DNA from: a virus
Reading direction: 5' to 3' (one strand)
DNA length: 21,462 nucleotides
Virus record (IMG/VR): IMGVR_UViG_3300030102_002630
Location: 1-21,462 of that record
The notes below the pieces were generated by a model. The model had not been told where the DNA came from. It ran no database searches and was given only the letters and a program-made list of their open reading frames with translations. A program made the translations under genes and the position numbers. Each line of letters begins with the position of its first letter. Positions within the stretch are counted from its first letter, which is position 1. Shown piece after piece: positions 10,319 through 21,462 of the stretch.

Positions 10319-10466
10319 ACACGCAGTTGAATGTACGGTTTGCCATGAGAACCTGTGCTATTATGGTGCTACAGTATGTTCCGAATGTGAGGATTGGGGA
10401 ACATTGGAAGGAGAATATGAAGAATATTTGAGGAATAAAAATGAGAATAGAAATGAAGAAGAATGA
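10305..10466 (+). CDS. zinc-ribbon mini-protein
   Basis: 53 residues (MGKNRHAVECTVCHEN...TVCSECEDW...). Two CxxC pairs about 15 residues apart form a minimal zinc ribbon, followed by a very acidic, Glu/Asn-rich tail. It overlaps the preceding gene by 14 bases and the PCNA gene by 26. Function unknown; belongs to the recurring set of cysteine-paired small proteins. Confidence 0.6.
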   Translation: MGKNRHAVECTVCHENLCYYGATVCSECEDWGTLEGEYEEYLRNKNENRNEEE

Positions 10467-11208
10467 ATTTAATGAAATGTTAGATAGAGTAGAGATGAGA
10501 GGAAAGTATTACGATGGTGAGTCTGCGAAGAATGGCGTACTATCCAACTACGTTCACATCGAAGTGGTGAATGGTCAGACAATACTAACCAATGGTGACA
10601 ACACTACTGCTTGTATTATTAAAGATAGTATATTGCAAGAGGATGGTGATTCGCTAGACGGAACGTGTGTGTTGGATATCACCAAGTTGGGTAAGTATCT
10701 GAGTCCCTTTGAGGATGATGTCACCATGTCGGTTGATGGCTTTGTGACTCTAGACGATGGTAACAGTAAGGCTAAGTTACCTGTTGTCGTAGAGCATCCG
10801 GCAATCACTATGGTAAATCTAGTTAGGGAGAGGTTTGATGCAATCCTTTCAGAAGAAGACTACCCCACGTTTGGTAAGACCAAGTACGACAACATGGTGA
10901 AGATACCAACCACGGAGTTGCTCAATGCGGTGAAGGGTTGTGATGTCACTAACTTGGCTAGATACAAGTTTGTCTTTGATGGTGAGTCCTTGACCCTATC
11001 AAGTCAACGTAGTACAACAGACGGATTTACTGCTGACATACTCGTTGCGGAGTCAAGTGGTGATGGTGCATCTGTTGAGTTTACTGGTAACATTACCAAG
11101 TTTCTGGGAAGCGACAACTATGTGACTCTTTATTTGCGAGATGACTCTCCGGTTATCATAACTACTGCTAACTCTCTGTTGGTCAAAGCACCTTACTTGA
11201 GGCGATAA
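10441..11208 (+). CDS. pcn: PCNA-like DNA sliding clamp
   Basis: 255 residues, the usual PCNA length (~245-260). The two-domain beta/alpha pattern is visible, with central loop region DDVTMSVDGFVTLDDG, an interdomain region VEHPAITMVNL, and the C-terminal strands YVTLYLRDDSPVIITTANSL, where PCNA has the corresponding P-x-x-I/L-x-x end strands. It should trimerise around DNA and hold polymerase, ligase and nuclease. Divergent at residue level, but its position directly before PolB and the presence of RFC in the same operon support the call. ATG 10441 follows AATAAAA; ATG 10453 is an alternative. Confidence 0.85.
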   Translation: MRIEMKKNEFNEMLDRVEMRGKYYDGESAKNGVLSNYVHIEVVNGQTILTNGDNTTACIIKDSILQEDGDSLDGTCVLDITKLGKYLSPFEDDVTMSVDGFVTLDDGNSKAKLPVVVEHPAITMVNLVRERFDAILSEEDYPTFGKTKYDNMVKIPTTELLNAVKGCDVTNLARYKFVFDGESLTLSSQRSTTDGFTADILVAESSGDGASVEFTGNITKFLGSDNYVTLYLRDDSPVIITTANSLLVKAPYLRR

Positions 11209-11209
11209 A

Positions 11210-12889
11210 ATGATTATTGATACTACGACAAAGGGAATACTGCTTAGATGGAGAGATGAATACAAGAAGGTTCAGACGAAGGAAGTATCCTTCGATGAAT
11301 TCAAGCCTAGGTTCTACATCAAGGATAGTGAGATTGAGATGAATGAGTGCAAGGGTAGAGATGCCTATGGTAGTTTCACATTGAAGCCATCATACGAGAA
11401 GACTGATTTCGTCAATCTTGACGGTGATAGACTAAAGCAAGTTTCTTGGTCACCACCAAAACCACACTATGCTAAGTTGATGAGAAACTGGTTTGACAGA
11501 AACAACATTGACACATACGAAGGAGATGTTGCACATCATCACAGGTATGCTATAGAGAACCCGGATTTCTTTCCAGAGTATGAAATGAGAAAGTTGTATT
11601 GGGATATGGAATGGATGCAAGGTGGAGAACATGATGGCGCGATTACTTGTATTGCTACATACGACAGTTATGACAATTGGTACAAGACATATGTTTGGTA
11701 TCCAGATGGTAGAGATACAGATGGGTTAGGACAAGGTGTGAAGTTTTATTCTTCTGAGAAGAAGATGCTACAGGCTTTCCTTAGCGATATCATCTTCCAT
11801 GACCCAGACATGCTTATCTCTTGGTTCGGTTGGAAGTTCGACCTGCCTAAGTTGATTGAGAGGCTCATCCATAACAAGTTAGATGCTCAACTGCTTTCTC
11901 CTTGTGATGAAGTTAGTGGAGTGTATTGGGATAAGAAGACAAAGCAAGTCGCTATGGATAAGAAAAAGGTGAACAGTTACTCACCTACATACCAACCAAT
12001 CAAGGGTAGGATATGTGTTGCTCTAGATGCGGCGTTTGAAAGACAATGGTTGGATTCTCAGAGAGGAACATTGCCTTCAATGGCACTTGACTACATAGGT
12101 GAAACCGTTCTTGGAAAGAAGAAACTAGTGAGTAATAGGTTTCCAGATAAGAACGAATTCTTTGCTAGGGCTTGGTTGGAGGATTCAGATGTCTATCTGG
12201 AGTATGCTAGGATAGACGTAGAATTACTAGTTGAACTAGATACTACCAACCACATCACGGAAGCAATACTATCTCTTCAGAGACTTCTGAAAGCACCGTA
12301 TGATGCATGTCATCATGCGACTAAGATGGCAGGAATTTACTTCATGCGTAATGCTTCTTGGAAGGCTCCTACAGGCAAGAAAGGAGAGTCTAGGTCATAT
12401 GATGGGGCAATGGTGTATGACCCGCTTAGTGAAGGCACAAATGGGCTTCATTTTGGTGTAGCCGCATTTGACTTCGCGGGTCTGTATCCAAGCATGATGA
12501 TTGCAAGAAACATTTCGTGGGAGACAAAATCGAGAGTACCAACTGAGTTTGCAGTAAACATCAGCACTCCCAAGGATTTCAGCGAATCAACTCACACGAA
12601 TATGAGATACTTCAAGACGGATGACTTAGGACTTCTGCCACGTTCTCTTTTGGGGTTGAAGAAGTTGAGGAACGAGTACAAGGTGAACATGAAGAATGCA
12701 TCTGACAAATCCGAGTACGTTATGTGGAACAACAACCAACTAGCGGTCAAGAGATTGATGGCTTCGTTCTATGGGATTGTTGGATTCCAAGGATACGGTT
12801 GGTGTGATATCGAATTAGCAGAGGCAATTACTGCTAGTGCTAGGGAAGCGATTAGAGAAGCGGCCTACCAAGCGAGGCGATACGAATGA
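11210..12889 (+). CDS. polB: family-B DNA polymerase, N-terminal half (exonuclease, motifs A and B)
   Basis: 559 residues. The 3'-5' exonuclease motifs are ExoI YWDMEW (Asp132, Glu134), ExoII WKFDLP (Asp211) and ExoIII YARID (Tyr332, Asp336). Polymerase motif A is DFAGLYPS (421-427, catalytic Asp421) and motif B is KRLMASFYG (514-522), where the usual Asn of KxxxNSxYG is Ala. The fingers helix ends ITASAREAIREAAYQARRYE and the frame then stops, before motif C. The missing catalytic palm and thumb are encoded by the gene at 13487, so the active enzyme must assemble from two chains. It starts one base after the PCNA stop. The start context of the next small ORF (ATGA) shows translation is coupled rather than merely broken. 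Confidence 0.93.
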   Translation: MIIDTTTKGILLRWRDEYKKVQTKEVSFDEFKPRFYIKDSEIEMNECKGRDAYGSFTLKPSYEKTDFVNLDGDRLKQVSWSPPKPHYAKLMRNWFDRNNIDTYEGDVAHHHRYAIENPDFFPEYEMRKLYWDMEWMQGGEHDGAITCIATYDSYDNWYKTYVWYPDGRDTDGLGQGVKFYSSEKKMLQAFLSDIIFHDPDMLISWFGWKFDLPKLIERLIHNKLDAQLLSPCDEVSGVYWDKKTKQVAMDKKKVNSYSPTYQPIKGRICVALDAAFERQWLDSQRGTLPSMALDYIGETVLGKKKLVSNRFPDKNEFFARAWLEDSDVYLEYARIDVELLVELDTTNHITEAILSLQRLLKAPYDACHHATKMAGIYFMRNASWKAPTGKKGESRSYDGAMVYDPLSEGTNGLHFGVAAFDFAGLYPSMMIARNISWETKSRVPTEFAVNISTPKDFSESTHTNMRYFKTDDLGLLPRSLLGLKKLRNEYKVNMKNASDKSEYVMWNNNQLAVKRLMASFYGIVGFQGYGWCDIELAEAITASAREAIREAAYQARRYE

Positions 12890-12957
12890 GTCAAACTTGG
12901 AAGTCCTACTTCAAAGCGAAGAAAGCATGGAGGAAGCGACATGGGAGAGGTGGCTAG
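12886..12957 (+). CDS. 23-residue basic peptide ORF between the polymerase halves
   Basis: MSQTWKSYFKAKKAWRKRHG followed by RGG. It forms an ATGA overlap with the stop of the polymerase N-half and is very basic (nine Lys/Arg of 23). The arrangement suggests translation, but 23 codons could be chance. It overlaps the next zinc protein by 17 bases. Confidence 0.3.
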   Translation: MSQTWKSYFKAKKAWRKRHGRGG

Positions 12958-13144
12958 ATGTGCGGTATGTCATGTAGAGTCCGAAGGTTGTATGACGGAA
13001 CATGGTTTCGTATGCAAAGCATGTATCGGACATTGGCTACATGACTATCTGAGAATGGTGAATCCATTCCCACATTTAGATGAAAAGAAGATTATGAAAA
13101 TAAAAAAGGAATTGATAAAATGGAAAGAAGAGCGAGAAGCGTAG
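12941..13144 (+). CDS. zinc-binding mini-protein between the polymerase halves
   Basis: 67 residues. ARCAVCHVESEGCMTEHG then FVCKACIGHWLH gives two CxxC pairs with extra Cys/His, consistent with one or two zinc ions. A basic C-terminal helix (KKIMKIKKELIKWKEEREA) follows. It is not HNH or GIY-YIG in pattern, so I see no homing nuclease here. It overlaps the next gene by 25 bases. Confidence 0.65.
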   Translation: MGEVARCAVCHVESEGCMTEHGFVCKACIGHWLHDYLRMVNPFPHLDEKKIMKIKKELIKWKEEREA

Positions 13145-13353
13145 CACACGTAGAATATGAAATATTAGATTGGGTAGGAAGAAGAGCATGGTTAGATGGC
13201 CTAATGGCCGAGATGGTTCCGAAAGGAGACAAGATTGCTGAGAAGCGTTTCCGAACAGGAGCCACTAACATTAGCGGTTATCTTAGAAACATGATGGAAA
13301 GAAGGCAACACAAGTTACCTAAAGACCATGATAATTACAAGGAGAGAGAATAA
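13120..13353 (+). CDS. small basic helical protein of unknown function
   Basis: 77 residues, MERRARSVAHVEYEILDWVG and on to GATNISGYLRNMMERRQ. Predicted helices, strongly basic at both ends, no cysteines. The internal pattern (a hydrophobic helix, then a loop, then SGYLRNMM) could be a small winged-helix or HTH-like domain, but this is weak. Its stop shares a base with the next ATG (TAATG). Confidence 0.6.
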   Translation: MERRARSVAHVEYEILDWVGRRAWLDGLMAEMVPKGDKIAEKRFRTGATNISGYLRNMMERRQHKLPKDHDNYKERE

Positions 13354-13484
13354 TGGATGGCGAATGGGGAAAATGTGTTGAATGTAGAAAAGATGTATTC
13401 TTTACTAGAACAGGAACAATGTGTAGAACATGTTTCTTTGAGTTATGGGAAGGAAAGCCCATTGTAGAATTTGGAGATGAATAA
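13353..13484 (+). CDS. zinc-ribbon mini-protein directly before the polymerase C-half
   Basis: 43 residues. GKCVECRKDVFFTRTGTMCR then TCFFELWEG: two CxxC pairs separated by 13 residues, the minimal zinc-ribbon spacing. It starts in TAATG with the preceding gene and ends two bases before the polymerase C-half start. Function unknown. Confidence 0.6.
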   Translation: MDGEWGKCVECRKDVFFTRTGTMCRTCFFELWEGKPIVEFGDE

Positions 13485-13486
13485 TA

Positions 13487-14401
13487 ATGAAGGTAGTTTA
13501 TGGACACACAGATTCCATCTATGTAGATTGTGAATCTGTTGAGAAAGGTAAGGAAGCAGTAGAGCATATAAACAAGGAAGTACAGAAGTTGTTCCCAAAC
13601 ATTCTAGGTTTGGATGAGCATCCCGTACAGTTAGAGTTTGAGAAGTATTTCAAAACTCTAGGTGTAGGTGTGACAAAGAACAGAAACGCAGGTTTGATTA
13701 CTTGGAAAGATGGAGAGTTCCTTGAAGAAGACGAGTTCTCAATGACTGGTTTTACTGCCAAGAGACAGTCTATCACTAAACTAGGTAAGGAGACACAAAC
13801 ACAAGTCTTGAACATGTGGGTCAATGCATGTAGTGAAGAAGAGGTGACTGATTACCTACATGGGCTTTACAATGCAGTATTGCAAGGTAAGATTCCTGTT
13901 AGCGATGTTCTAACAAGAACGAGATACAAAGAATCTAGGTTCAAGGTAATCTGTAACAACTGTAGAAAGAACGGTTGGAAGAGCAACTTTACCCTTCATG
14001 AGTTGATGGAAAGAAAGCAGATGGGAAGAGAGTGTTGTGATAAACCAGATTATGTCACATCAGAAGGAAAGCGACCTACCATCGGTTCTGGTATAGAGGG
14101 TGTATTGTATCACGATACTATATCGGATACACCTATTACAGATTCATATCTGTACTTTAGGATTGACCCACACTCTCCCGCCACATACACACATCCGTTC
14201 TCTGGTAGGTCAACAAGACCATCCTACTTCTCCTTCATAACCGAGAAGGAACTATCGGAGTCATGGCACGAACCAGATTGGAGACATTATGCAGAGTCGG
14301 TTCTAAAGAAAGCCACACCAATCTATCATGCAATGGAATGGGACTTACAGGCAATTAAGAAAGATAGAAATCAAAGTGCCTTGGGGGAATGGTTAGTTTG
14401 A
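13487..14401 (+). CDS. polB: family-B DNA polymerase, C-terminal half (motif C palm, thumb, PIP box)
   Basis: 304 residues beginning MKVVYGHTDSIYVD, which is motif C of a B-family polymerase (normally YGDTDS). The metal-binding second Asp (Asp9) is present, the first Asp is His. KNRNAG (64-69) and FTAKRQSITKLGKETQ (~89-104) are the KKRYAG and KR-S-x-x-x-K-x-Q regions of the palm and thumb. A cysteine set CNNC (156-159) and CC (183-184) inside the thumb region suggests an inserted zinc site. The last residues QSALGEWLV fit a PCNA-interacting peptide (QxxLxxWL), as at the C-terminus of other archaeal PolB. It begins almost exactly where the N-half at 11210 ends, so the two make one polymerase. 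Confidence 0.92.
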   Translation: MKVVYGHTDSIYVDCESVEKGKEAVEHINKEVQKLFPNILGLDEHPVQLEFEKYFKTLGVGVTKNRNAGLITWKDGEFLEEDEFSMTGFTAKRQSITKLGKETQTQVLNMWVNACSEEEVTDYLHGLYNAVLQGKIPVSDVLTRTRYKESRFKVICNNCRKNGWKSNFTLHELMERKQMGRECCDKPDYVTSEGKRPTIGSGIEGVLYHDTISDTPITDSYLYFRIDPHSPATYTHPFSGRSTRPSYFSFITEKELSESWHEPDWRHYAESVLKKATPIYHAMEWDLQAIKKDRNQSALGEWLV

Positions 14402-14637: not shown

Positions 14638-14975
14638 TGAGAGATAGAATAGAAGAAATGCTACAAGAAAAACAATGGACTTTTGCAGAGATGCAGGATA
14701 TGTCTGCTTTGGTTGATATGTTCGCTGAAAGGATATACACAGATATGTCTGCCAAGGAGAAATTAGATTTCGTCTGGCAGGACATAGGTGAGGACTTTCA
14801 GAGAATCCTCATTACCAGATTAAAGGAAGACGTAGCGATAGAAGTCAAAGAATTACTAATGAATGCAAATATTAATTTTAATGGAGATGATAAGAATGAG
14901 ATACCCAAGGGAAGTTTGGGCCGGAAGTCACATCAAAGGCTCAAGGCAAATACCAAGAAAACTAGTGAAGAGTAG
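14637..14975 (+). CDS. helical protein of unknown function upstream of primase
   Basis: 112 residues from GTG 14637, which shares one base with the previous stop (TAGTG); ATG 14622 in the same frame would add five residues. The protein is acidic and largely alpha-helical (RDRIEEMLQEKQWTFAEMQD, AKEKLDFVWQDIGEDFQRIL), ending in a basic tail (GRKSHQRLKANTKKTSEE) that lies within the ~80-base overlap with the primase gene. A long overlap like this is unusual for the window, and one of the two starts may be further in. No family recognised. Confidence 0.6.
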   Translation: MRDRIEEMLQEKQWTFAEMQDMSALVDMFAERIYTDMSAKEKLDFVWQDIGEDFQRILITRLKEDVAIEVKELLMNANINFNGDDKNEIPKGSLGRKSHQRLKANTKKTSEE

Positions 14976-20653: not shown

Positions 20654-21462
20654 CTAAGCATTATCAATACTAAACCAAACATCCACTATGTAATCACCCA
20701 TATCAACTGCACCCGAATTTCTTCTTACCGCTAATGTATCACCTGCATTGTAGGAGGTACTGAGTCCTGTGGTCACTAGTGAATGATGAGTTGCGTTGGA
20801 GTTCTCAGAGTTGTGTCTTGTGAATTGGCTGGCGTTATAGGAAACATCGAGTAGGGTTCCTGTCCCTGCATTTCCATTTGCGAATATTCTCAGCACTTGA
20901 GCAGTAGTACCGGAAAGAACAACACCGTTGGTTCTAATGACAACTGCTCTTATCGTAATATCTCTAGGTACGGAATAGACTGGCGAACCTGCCTCGTCAT
21001 CATCGAATGTCATTCTTTTGAGGCCATGACCATCCCCATTGGAAGTTCCATAGTCATTCTTGCCCCAAGTCACCTTATGCCAAAGATTCCAACCGTTCGC
21101 GTTGGATACTGCTTCGATTCCCCCGACATTGTTTATCTTGAGTCTCTGAGAGCCATTCGTCATCAATGCTAGAGTGTGATTGGTCGAAGTTCCAAATACA
21201 CCAGTTGATGCTTGTGCCTGTGTCTTAATTCCCGCACCGCTTGCTCTTTCGACAAATAACTCTCCATTACCACCATCTATCCCTTCTAGATGTAATAGAT
21301 GGTCAGGAGCAGTACCCGCATCTCCAACTCCTATCCGTTGTGTGTTCGCATTGATGTAGAAAAAATCTGCCGTAGCGTCTGAATTATAGCAGAAGTCTAT
21401 GTCATCAAGTTGAGAGTTTATCTCAATTTGCCTAGCACCAGACCTCCATCTCATGTATTCTT
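20654..21462 (-). CDS. tail fibre / receptor-binding protein, C-terminal part (N-terminus beyond window)
   Basis: At least 269 residues; the frame stays open to the right edge, so the first visible ATG (21454) is internal. Near the visible N-terminus, RWRSGARQIEINSQ, DFFYINANTQRIGVG and HLLHLEG are the repeated beta-strand segments common in marine phage tail fibres, with NGSQRLKINNVGGIEAV of the same type. The last ~110 residues (from RDITIRAVVIRTNGVVLSG) form a beta-sandwich-like tip rich in Asn, Ser and Thr that probably contacts the host surface. Opposite strand to the replication block, as expected of a late structural module. Confirms a tailed virion rather than a plasmid. Confidence 0.85.
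   Translation of the reverse strand, partial: EYMRWRSGARQIEINSQLDDIDFCYNSDATADFFYINANTQRIGVGDAGTAPDHLLHLEGIDGGNGELFVERASGAGIKTQAQASTGVFGTSTNHTLALMTNGSQRLKINNVGGIEAVSNANGWNLWHKVTWGKNDYGTSNGDGHGLKRMTFDDDEAGSPVYSVPRDITIRAVVIRTNGVVLSGTTAQVLRIFANGNAGTGTLLDVSYNASQFTRHNSENSNATHHSLVTTGLSTSYNAGDTLAVRRNSGAVDMGDYIVDVWFSIDNA

Follow-up and report, generated by a model that had tools for sequence, protein, structure and literature searches.

A B-family DNA polymerase gene divided between motifs B and C, at a break site shared across a lineage of marine, probably archaeal, viruses

Introduction

B-family DNA polymerases (PolBs) divided into two parts are known from several quarters, as the first-pass annotation of the DNA analysed here had noted. 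The archaeal PolB of Methanothermobacter thermautotrophicus consists of two polypeptides according to the accessible part of PMC7776575, and the accessible parts of that paper and of PMC3984812, PMC3087415 and PMC2527604 give no break site for it. Among viruses, the available portion of PMC2988022 reports that 43A and 43B, the split products of Aeromonas phage 25, purify together and are active as a DNA polymerase, and that their genes are separated by untranslated sequence in phage 44RR and by a seg homing endonuclease gene in phage 25. In PolB16 OarG, the two chains are rejoined by intein segments, as described in the accessible part of PMC10189870. Poseidoniales virus YSH_150918 (Aoguangviridae, Magrovirales) carries the labels PolB-NTD and PolB-CTD in its genome-map legend (PMC10768690).

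Here we describe a viral locus in which PolB is encoded by two genes separated by a group of small open reading frames (ORFs). The arrangement is real and old, and its general kind is already known; in open-licence papers we found no account of the break site, its conservation, the fused sister polymerases or the turnover at the seam, and an earlier description is possible.

Results

Gene layout and identity of the two halves

The window (the whole 21,462-nucleotide stretch analysed, from IMG/VR record IMGVR_UViG_3300030102_002630) encodes the following features around the divided polymerase:

10441-11208, plus strand: putative PCNA-like sliding clamp, immediately upstream of the N-half
11210-12889, plus strand: PolB N-half, 559 aa, with the N-terminal and exonuclease domains, motif A and the fingers with motif B; its last element is the helix before motif C
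13487-14401, plus strand: PolB C-half, 304 aa, with motif C (YGHTDS), the rest of the palm, a thumb with a cysteine cluster and a PIP-box-like tail

Both reading frames are open throughout. The N-half matches Pfam families PF00136 (DNA_pol_B, 80.7 bits) and PF03104 (exonuclease, 28.1 bits) and the C-half matches PF00136 (40.1 bits), all above the curated cut-off of 23. The DNA_pol_B profile is covered in register, first by the N-half (35-195) and then by the C-half (222-370); phrog_262 is likewise matched by both halves in order (18-558 and 574-716), and in a profile search of solved chains the N-half ends at residue 743 of the 7kc0 DNA polymerase chain and the C-half begins at 758. Since the same families and the same solved chain are matched in order, the halves are, as judged from sequence, complementary parts of one polymerase; their derivation from paralogous polymerases, named in the first-pass annotation as what would overturn its reading, was tested and is ruled out. 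As in naturally split two-chain PolBs, the two ORFs are complementary, have their own starts and share no region.

The exonuclease acidic residues and motif A aspartate of the B-family are present in the N-half, in which D132, E134, D211, D336, D421, K514, Y521 and G522 are invariant across 21 aligned sequences. The two-aspartate motif C typical of most B-family members is absent: the motif reads YGHTDS in 93/95 split polymerases listed and YAHTDS in the other 2/95, the first aspartate being histidine in all these viruses. B2, G2 and primer-independent PolBs likewise lack this residue, according to the accessible part of PMC7544198, and because such exceptions exist its absence lowers the standing of these enzymes as typical members without affecting membership.

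In the AlphaFold model of L256, a fused relative (pLDDT 88.4), the seam corresponds to a three-residue turn (561-563) flanked by a helix (537-560) and a strand (564-569). The palm-fingers-thumb fold of the B-family is recovered from this model (top match 7b0h_F, E 2.0e-43, TM 0.75 by query) and from that of the window C-half, which superposes on KOD residues 533-756 (4k8z; Z 11.0, rmsd 3.9, 214 aligned) and on 3k59_A (Z 11.6, rmsd 4.3, 219 aligned); the palm of the C-half model is poor, but it derives from an alignment of 20 rows and carries little weight for or against.

The window copy of the clamp candidate has no Pfam or PHROG match, and a PDB profile search gave nothing convincing for it; 3/15 of its orthologues match phrog_947, 'DNA polymerase processivity factor' (best 2.8e-7). 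In 81/81 loci listed (the window and 80 relatives), the N-half is preceded by a homologue, which is within 20 bp in 65 of the 81 and at most 384 bp away. The window also encodes a ligase and RFC (Pfam), and the longest contigs of the split clade span 90-103 kb, a 90-110 kb genome with its own replisome being the criterion for Magrovirales. The virus is marine and probably infects archaea. Chaperonin, considered as a lineage marker, was present in only 2/9 records.

A conserved break site and its probable single origin

Relatives were taken from the matches listed (up to 80 loci per collection search; more exist). Among the 80 loci listed in the first set, every one of the 68 whose contig includes a C-half match is split at the same place (68/68), and in the other 12 the contig ends 18-678 bp past the N-half. 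Split sequences counted below number 95, comprising the window and 94 relatives on viral contigs, all non-identical, with near-copies remaining. Outside the split and fused counts stand 14 unique sequences whose contigs show no C-half match (15-1544 bp remaining beyond the N-half), and 50 unique sequences below 250 bits served as outgroups only, where named. L155, whose N-half frame stops at profile position 346, was left out of the seam counts, and L027, in which no C-half start was recognised, lies outside the residue sums and start counts.

The first-pass annotation placed the split between motifs B and C with almost no residues lost, and both points were confirmed: beyond the complementary profile matches, all 95 split sequences listed are broken in one and the same turn, ahead of motif C. 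The distance between the N-half terminus and the start of the ITAS motif is 19-25 residues in 94/95, and the C-half begins 4-6 residues before the motif C tyrosine in 94/95. Whereas the span from ITAS to TDS is 30 residues in 14/14 fused sisters listed, the summed N-tail and C-head come to 29-32 residues in 91/95 split sequences, with outliers of 33, 35 and 46 (the last being L011, with a longer N tail), so that residue loss at the break is nil or nearly so. Assembly error, the other condition under which the first-pass annotation would have fallen, was also tested and does not hold; it and chance are made very unlikely by the recurrence of the split in about a hundred contigs. One relative from a cellular genome, on a contig assigned to a Maricaulis MAG, is likewise split and is probably a misbinned virus.

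The fused sister clade comprises 14 listed sequences (L256 and 13 others) with a one-chain PolB and GHTDS at motif C in all 14. A quick tree grouped split and undetermined sequences with SH-aLRT 99, and a more careful tree, in which 107 sequences were thinned to 72 (60 of them split) and joined by 3 outgroup sequences, recovered the split clade with UFBoot 94 and SH-aLRT 74; both carried long-branch warnings involving the fused clade. Among the sequences listed, neither tree placed a fused polymerase inside the split clade. With moderate support from the careful tree (94/74), a single origin of the split is the simplest and most likely reading of the sequences.

The seam is a gene boundary in turnover

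Between the halves lie:

12890-13486: insert of 597 bp, with ORFs of 23, 67, 77 and 43 aa
12886-12957, plus strand: 23-aa ORF, with tblastn homologues in L003, L013, L016 and L018, all in the seam
12941-13144, plus strand: 67-aa protein with two CxxC pairs, zinc-ribbon-like from its sequence; insert cluster 3, 14 loci listed
13120-13353, plus strand: 77-aa protein; insert cluster 2, 16 loci listed, median dN/dS 0.17
13353-13486, plus strand: cassette of 134 bp from start to start, holding a 43-aa CxxC/CxxC ORF at 13353-13484

This agrees with the earlier description of an insert of about 600 bp encoding two zinc-binding proteins (those of 67 and 43 aa, each predicted as such from two CxxC pairs) and with its coupled starts, each insert ORF overlapping the preceding stop or beginning within 2 bp of it. 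The 67-, 77- and 43-aa ORFs have no Pfam or PHROG match. Among the matches listed, the 67-aa protein has homologues in the seams of 8 loci, and in 2 more, which are cut short of the C-half, they follow the N-half; the 77-aa protein has them in 14 seams, in 4 loci likewise cut short, and outside the seam in L034 and L035. No homologue of the 43-aa ORF was found at E 1e-3 in the 80 relative loci listed, and the 134-bp cassette is missing in L003 despite a 99% identical N-half (pairwise DNA alignment). In all, 213 insert ORFs were counted, in 59 groups. Ten larger insert ORFs included no homing endonuclease by Pfam; one of them, in L043, has a Rep-like domain.

The exact position of these small genes, and the recurrence of some constrained families in the seam (six families have median dN/dS values of 0.17-0.51), could suggest extra subunits that bridge or chaperone the halves, and the homologues of the 77-aa protein elsewhere in L034 and L035 would allow a role in trans. 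Against this, 6/95 split sequences listed (L032, L034, L051, L077, L172 and L293, in four lineages) have no insert, the halves overlapping by 4 or 1 bp (gap -4 or -1 bp), and insert content differs between clades, gaining or losing sequence between close relatives, as with the cassette present in the window and missing in L003. The view that something other than a simple break is present was thus not upheld, the insert ranging from nothing to 1.8 kb. Some other boundaries behave similarly: the seam differs by >30 bp in 45/104 close pairs, the highest share of eight boundaries tested, compared with 26/62 between the C-half and a 341-aa ORF at 14863, 21/61 and 19/59 at two others, and 18/132, 9/85, 0/50 and 0/59 at the rest, the pairs not being independent. 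The seam is lively and not unique as a hotspot, some other operon boundaries turning over about as much. Because of the insert-free loci, the turnover between close relatives and the similar turnover elsewhere, the inserted proteins are probably no part of the break or of the enzyme and look like passengers; a bridging role seems very unlikely.

Start signals and conservation of the two halves

The end of the N-half gene carries a potential translation signal:

12866-12889, plus strand: N-half tail with a Shine-Dalgarno-like GAGG within the last codons; its stop TGA overlaps the next ATG (ATGA)

A Shine-Dalgarno-like word occurs in this tail in 94/95 split sequences listed, against 18% of 1920 random N-half windows, and at the homologous place in 1/14 fused sisters. 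The N-half stop overlaps the next start as ATGA in 42/95 split sequences, and a start abuts it in 33/95. C-halves begin with ATG in 91, GTG in 2 and TTG in 1 of the 95 (none found in 1), behind a Shine-Dalgarno-like word in 84/94, against 17% of 2077 internal Met codons; a stricter word list still gave 67/94, against 16%, while 10/94 lacked any such word by the list used.

A fixed break site with near-zero residue loss would also suit exact rejoining into one chain before or during translation, by intron splicing, frameshifting or ribosome hopping. Such rejoining is highly improbable: the gap is free to vary from -4 to 1802 bp and modulo 3 (35/32/27), the C-half has its own start codon and, in 84 of those 94 loci, a Shine-Dalgarno-like word, the window insert is full of coding ORFs, and no Rfam family matched at its gathering score in the window or four other loci (5 sources).

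Median dN/dS is 0.070 for the N-half (162 pairs) and 0.069 for the C-half (112 pairs), pointing to equally strong purifying selection on both; N and C distances correlate (r = 0.914, 0/999 permutations, 87 sequences), and N-half identity across the split clade falls to about 45%. The interrupted gene and the change from aspartate to histidine in motif C might suggest a decayed polymerase that the virus no longer uses, with halves left as relics or in another role, but the low dN/dS of both halves, the invariance of the exonuclease and remaining polymerase acids in the sequences aligned, the co-divergence of the halves and the presence of the same histidine in the fused sisters make decay extremely improbable. 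Joining by split-intein trans-splicing, which in the accessible part of PMC10189870 occurs in PolB at motif C, adjoining this site, is practically negligible here, the N-tail and C-head lengths leaving no room for intein segments.

Discussion

Sequence comparison leads us to conclude that these viruses very probably build a single replicative B-family DNA polymerase from two polypeptides held together non-covalently. The ancestor of the lineage would have had an uninterrupted gene, as its sister clade still does, which broke, most likely once, in the turn that links the helix following motif B to the motif C strand. The C-part would then have started at its own methionine behind a ribosome-binding word in the last codons of the N-part, and would now be translated by coupled re-initiation or from its own ribosome-binding site. 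The N-half is predicted to supply proofreading, motif A and motif B. From the C-half would come the remaining motif C aspartate, the thumb, what is left of the palm, and a PIP-like tail with which to engage the putative clamp. Since residues of both chains are required in the active site, an obligate heterodimer is expected. Activity is not readable from motif C alone, its first aspartate being histidine here and in the fused sisters. The seam would now be a gene boundary, at which small genes come and go with neither half disturbed. A more tentative and rather unlikely extension is that the two-chain state is itself useful and selected, since no fused sequence lies within the split clade and the ribosome-binding word in the N tail lacks a counterpart in the fused sisters; the C-half may then be a catalytic cap for the clamp, dosed separately and exchangeable, with assembly as a control point.

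A replicative polymerase thus ceased, most likely on a single occasion, to be one covalent chain, and it has remained divided while its sequence diverged widely. The site in the palm at which it broke is evidently tolerated in nature and is useful for split-polymerase design. With fused sisters at one end, halves separated by 1.8 kb at the other and overlapping halves between them, these viruses form a natural series in which to ask how genes split, how a ribosome-binding site arises within the last coding stretch of the upstream half, and why the halves stay unjoined.

Among known systems, the fused sister clade has a homologous polymerase, shares YGHTDS and, in the sequences compared, mostly has a PIP-like tail, whereas those fused sequences lack the cluster of thumb cysteines seen in the split clade. 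Haloviruses HVTV-1 and VOLN27B have YGDTDS at motif C, and the homologous HVTV-1 polymerase is a single chain. PolB16 OarG is encoded by two genes broken at motif C, as here, and differs in the intein segments that define a split intein on both halves, which these polymerases lack. The split PolB of Methanothermobacter thermautotrophicus is a cellular enzyme, its two genes lying far apart, whereas the present one is viral. Virus YSH_150918 has a genome similar in size to that of the present virus and probably belongs to the same lineage; its published text offers the legend label and is silent on where the break lies, on relatives, on origin and on what the seam contains (PMC10768690). The T4-like Aeromonas phages 25 and 44RR, as described in the available part of PMC2988022, resemble the present virus in carrying a viral PolB in two adjacent genes. 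In 44RR, the break lies upstream of motif B, leaving motifs B and C together in the C-part, whereas here it lies downstream of B and before C, and the intergenic content of the Aeromonas phages is unlike the several small genes in turnover that occupy the seam of this lineage.

One polymerase encoded by two genes

The B-family DNA polymerase (PolB) lies in a replication operon on the plus strand of the window, together with a DNA ligase, an RFC small subunit and an ERCC4 nuclease (all from Pfam) and an exonuclease-like gene (from PHROG). The genes at and immediately before the polymerase are:

10441-11208, plus strand: putative, divergent sliding clamp, 1 bp before the N-half
11210-12889, plus strand: PolB N-half
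13487-14401, plus strand: PolB C-half, 597 bp after the N-half

Both halves match the same Pfam, PHROG and PDB profiles, in order and without overlap. Across 21 aligned N-halves, there is no variation in the exonuclease acids D132, E134, D211 and D336, in motif A (D421, LYPS) or in motif B (K514, YG); the motif names follow common usage and PMC7544198. The second Asp of motif C is likewise invariant across 20 C-halves. Their tail has an invariant Trp together with a Gln and a Leu shared by at least 90% of the rows, a PIP-box-like pattern. The thumb of the split clade also carries a cysteine cluster (CxxC ... CC, C-half residues ~156-183), absent from the fused (uninterrupted) polymerases compared, and in four N-halves of one sub-clade (L275, L280, L284 and L291) motif A is immediately preceded by an insert with four cysteines that resembles a zinc ribbon.

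The label of the upstream gene (10441-11208) as a sliding clamp is tentative and drawn from sequence comparison: the window's candidate has no match in Pfam or PHROG and nothing convincing among PDB profiles; 3 of 15 orthologues match a 'DNA polymerase processivity factor' family, and the gene sits no more than 384 bp upstream of the N-half in all 81 loci examined. At the window's right end, a minus-strand ORF of 266 aa (20654-21454) resembles a structural protein, as read from its sequence.

Conservation and origin of the break

Searches of wider collections gave at least 296 loci with an N-half match, at least 174 of them unique. Among the loci listed, 124 unique ones exceeded 250 bits, comprising 96 split, 14 fused and 14 without a C-half match on the contig; one split locus with its frame broken elsewhere (L155) was left out, leaving 95 split rows, window included. 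A C-half match was present in 68 of 80 relatives listed (viral contigs), all 68 split at the identical place; in the remaining 12, the contig stops 18-678 bp past the N-half. N-half tail and C-half head together span 29-32 residues in 91 of the 95 split rows (more in three, no sum in one), and the corresponding span is 30 residues in all 14 fused rows (L244, L245, L247-L251, L256-L258, L260-L262 and L264). We conclude that the break is fixed and old, and that the first-pass annotation was right to read one PolB as two complementary genes. The N-half of one locus, L011, has a tail ~16 residues longer that looks as if the end of the helix had been duplicated over a short stretch. L304, a contig of 24 kb assigned to a Maricaulis MAG, carries the split viral polymerase and is probably a misbinned virus.

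We located the break structurally using an AlphaFold model of a fused relative, L256 (pLDDT 88.4, pTM 0.82), computed from an alignment of fused rows and separate halves. The model resembles archaeal PolB structures and places the seam at a three-residue turn (561-563) between a helix (537-560) and the motif C strand starting at 564. Modelled alone (20-row alignment), the window's C-half superposes on KOD residues 533-756 with a confident thumb, while palm residues 53-94 fall below pLDDT 50. The active site would thus be completed only where both chains meet.

In a quick tree of 128 N-regions, 93 split rows and the 14 without a C-half match on the contig fall on one side of a branch (SH-aLRT 99), and the branch uniting this side with the fused clade has SH-aLRT 93; in a careful tree of 75 rows, all 60 split rows fall on one side (UFBoot 94, SH-aLRT 74). 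Both trees gave long-branch warnings involving the fused clade. The split is most simply read as having a single origin, for which the support is moderate. Motif C has the unusual form YGHTDS in 93 of the 95 split rows and YAHTDS in two (the window's His is at 13505-13507, C-half residue 7), and YGHTDS in all 14 fused sisters; the likewise fused polymerases of haloviruses HVTV-1 and VOLN27B have YGDTDS. Because the Asp-to-His change is common to the fused sisters, it most simply precedes the split.

Expression and selection

In 94 of 95 split rows, the N-half's final 18 nt include a Shine-Dalgarno (SD)-like word, compared with 18% of 1920 random windows, and the N-half stop overlaps the following start (ATGA) in 42 rows and abuts a start in 33. 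The conserved tail peptide could by itself favour such words, but the homologous place in the fused sisters holds one in just 1 of 14. Since the word is near-universal in split rows and so rare in fused ones, it appears to have arisen with the split, as a site for re-initiation inside the N-half end; it would serve the C-half directly in viruses where the genes overlap and the first small gene in others. An SD-like word also lies ahead of the C-half start in 84 of 94 rows (67 by a stricter list), compared with 17% (16%) of 2077 internal Met codons. Expression of the halves as one chain by frameshifting or hopping is opposed by gap lengths spread across all three frames (modulo 3, 35/32/27).

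Selection on both halves is strongly purifying and of equal strength (median dN/dS 0.070 and 0.069); across 87 rows their divergences correlate (r = 0.914), and the nearest neighbour is identical for both in 52. The two-gene polymerase is real and old, and it looks functional. We propose an obligate heterodimer, in which the N-half chain would supply the exonuclease and motifs A and B, and the C-half chain motif C, the thumb and a putative clamp-binding tail.

Content and turnover of the seam

The insert measures between -4 and 1802 bp, with a median of 315 bp. Six loci have none (L032, L034, L051, L077, L172 and L293), representing four lineages on the quick tree, with L172, too short for the tree, put beside L077 by C-half sequence. 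The seam also turns over between close relatives: the window and L003 have N-halves 99% identical, yet the window carries one additional 134-bp start-to-start cassette (a 43-aa CxxC ORF), and among pairs >93% identical, seam length differs by >30 bp in 46 of 87. In a comparison of eight boundaries of the operon, the seam had the highest rate of change (45 of 104 close pairs), the boundary between the C-half and a 341-aa ORF was similarly variable (26 of 62), and two showed no change in any close pair. The special role first proposed for the insert finds no support in the six loci without one or in this turnover.

The window's 23-, 67- and 77-aa ORFs are real genes, as homologues occur in other seams; the few base differences between their copies in the window and L003 do not allow selection to be judged. 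Six insert families have median dN/dS of 0.17-0.51, a looser constraint than on the polymerase, and the small genes are best seen as passengers. One seam (L043:5410-5754) holds an ORF with a Rep-type endonuclease domain (Viral_Rep, 4.4e-17), its nearest solved chains being replication-associated proteins, which is odd for such a virus. In several loci, small ORFs of the insert have Glu-rich C-termini (EEE-stop); such tails may provide an SD site for the following gene, which would make these ORFs self-contained cassettes.

Comparison with known systems

None of the open-licence papers searched was found to describe the site of the break, the fused relatives or the turnover of the seam. The ICTV profile labels the PolB of magrovirus YSH_150918 as PolB-NTD/CTD (PMC10768690), so that a split PolB in a magrovirus has already been published, as a label. 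Split PolB is also known in Methanothermobacter (PMC7776575). In Aeromonas phages PolB is also split, with the break in 44RR preceding motif B, and Aeromonas phage 25 offers a direct precedent for a two-chain PolB (PMC2988022).
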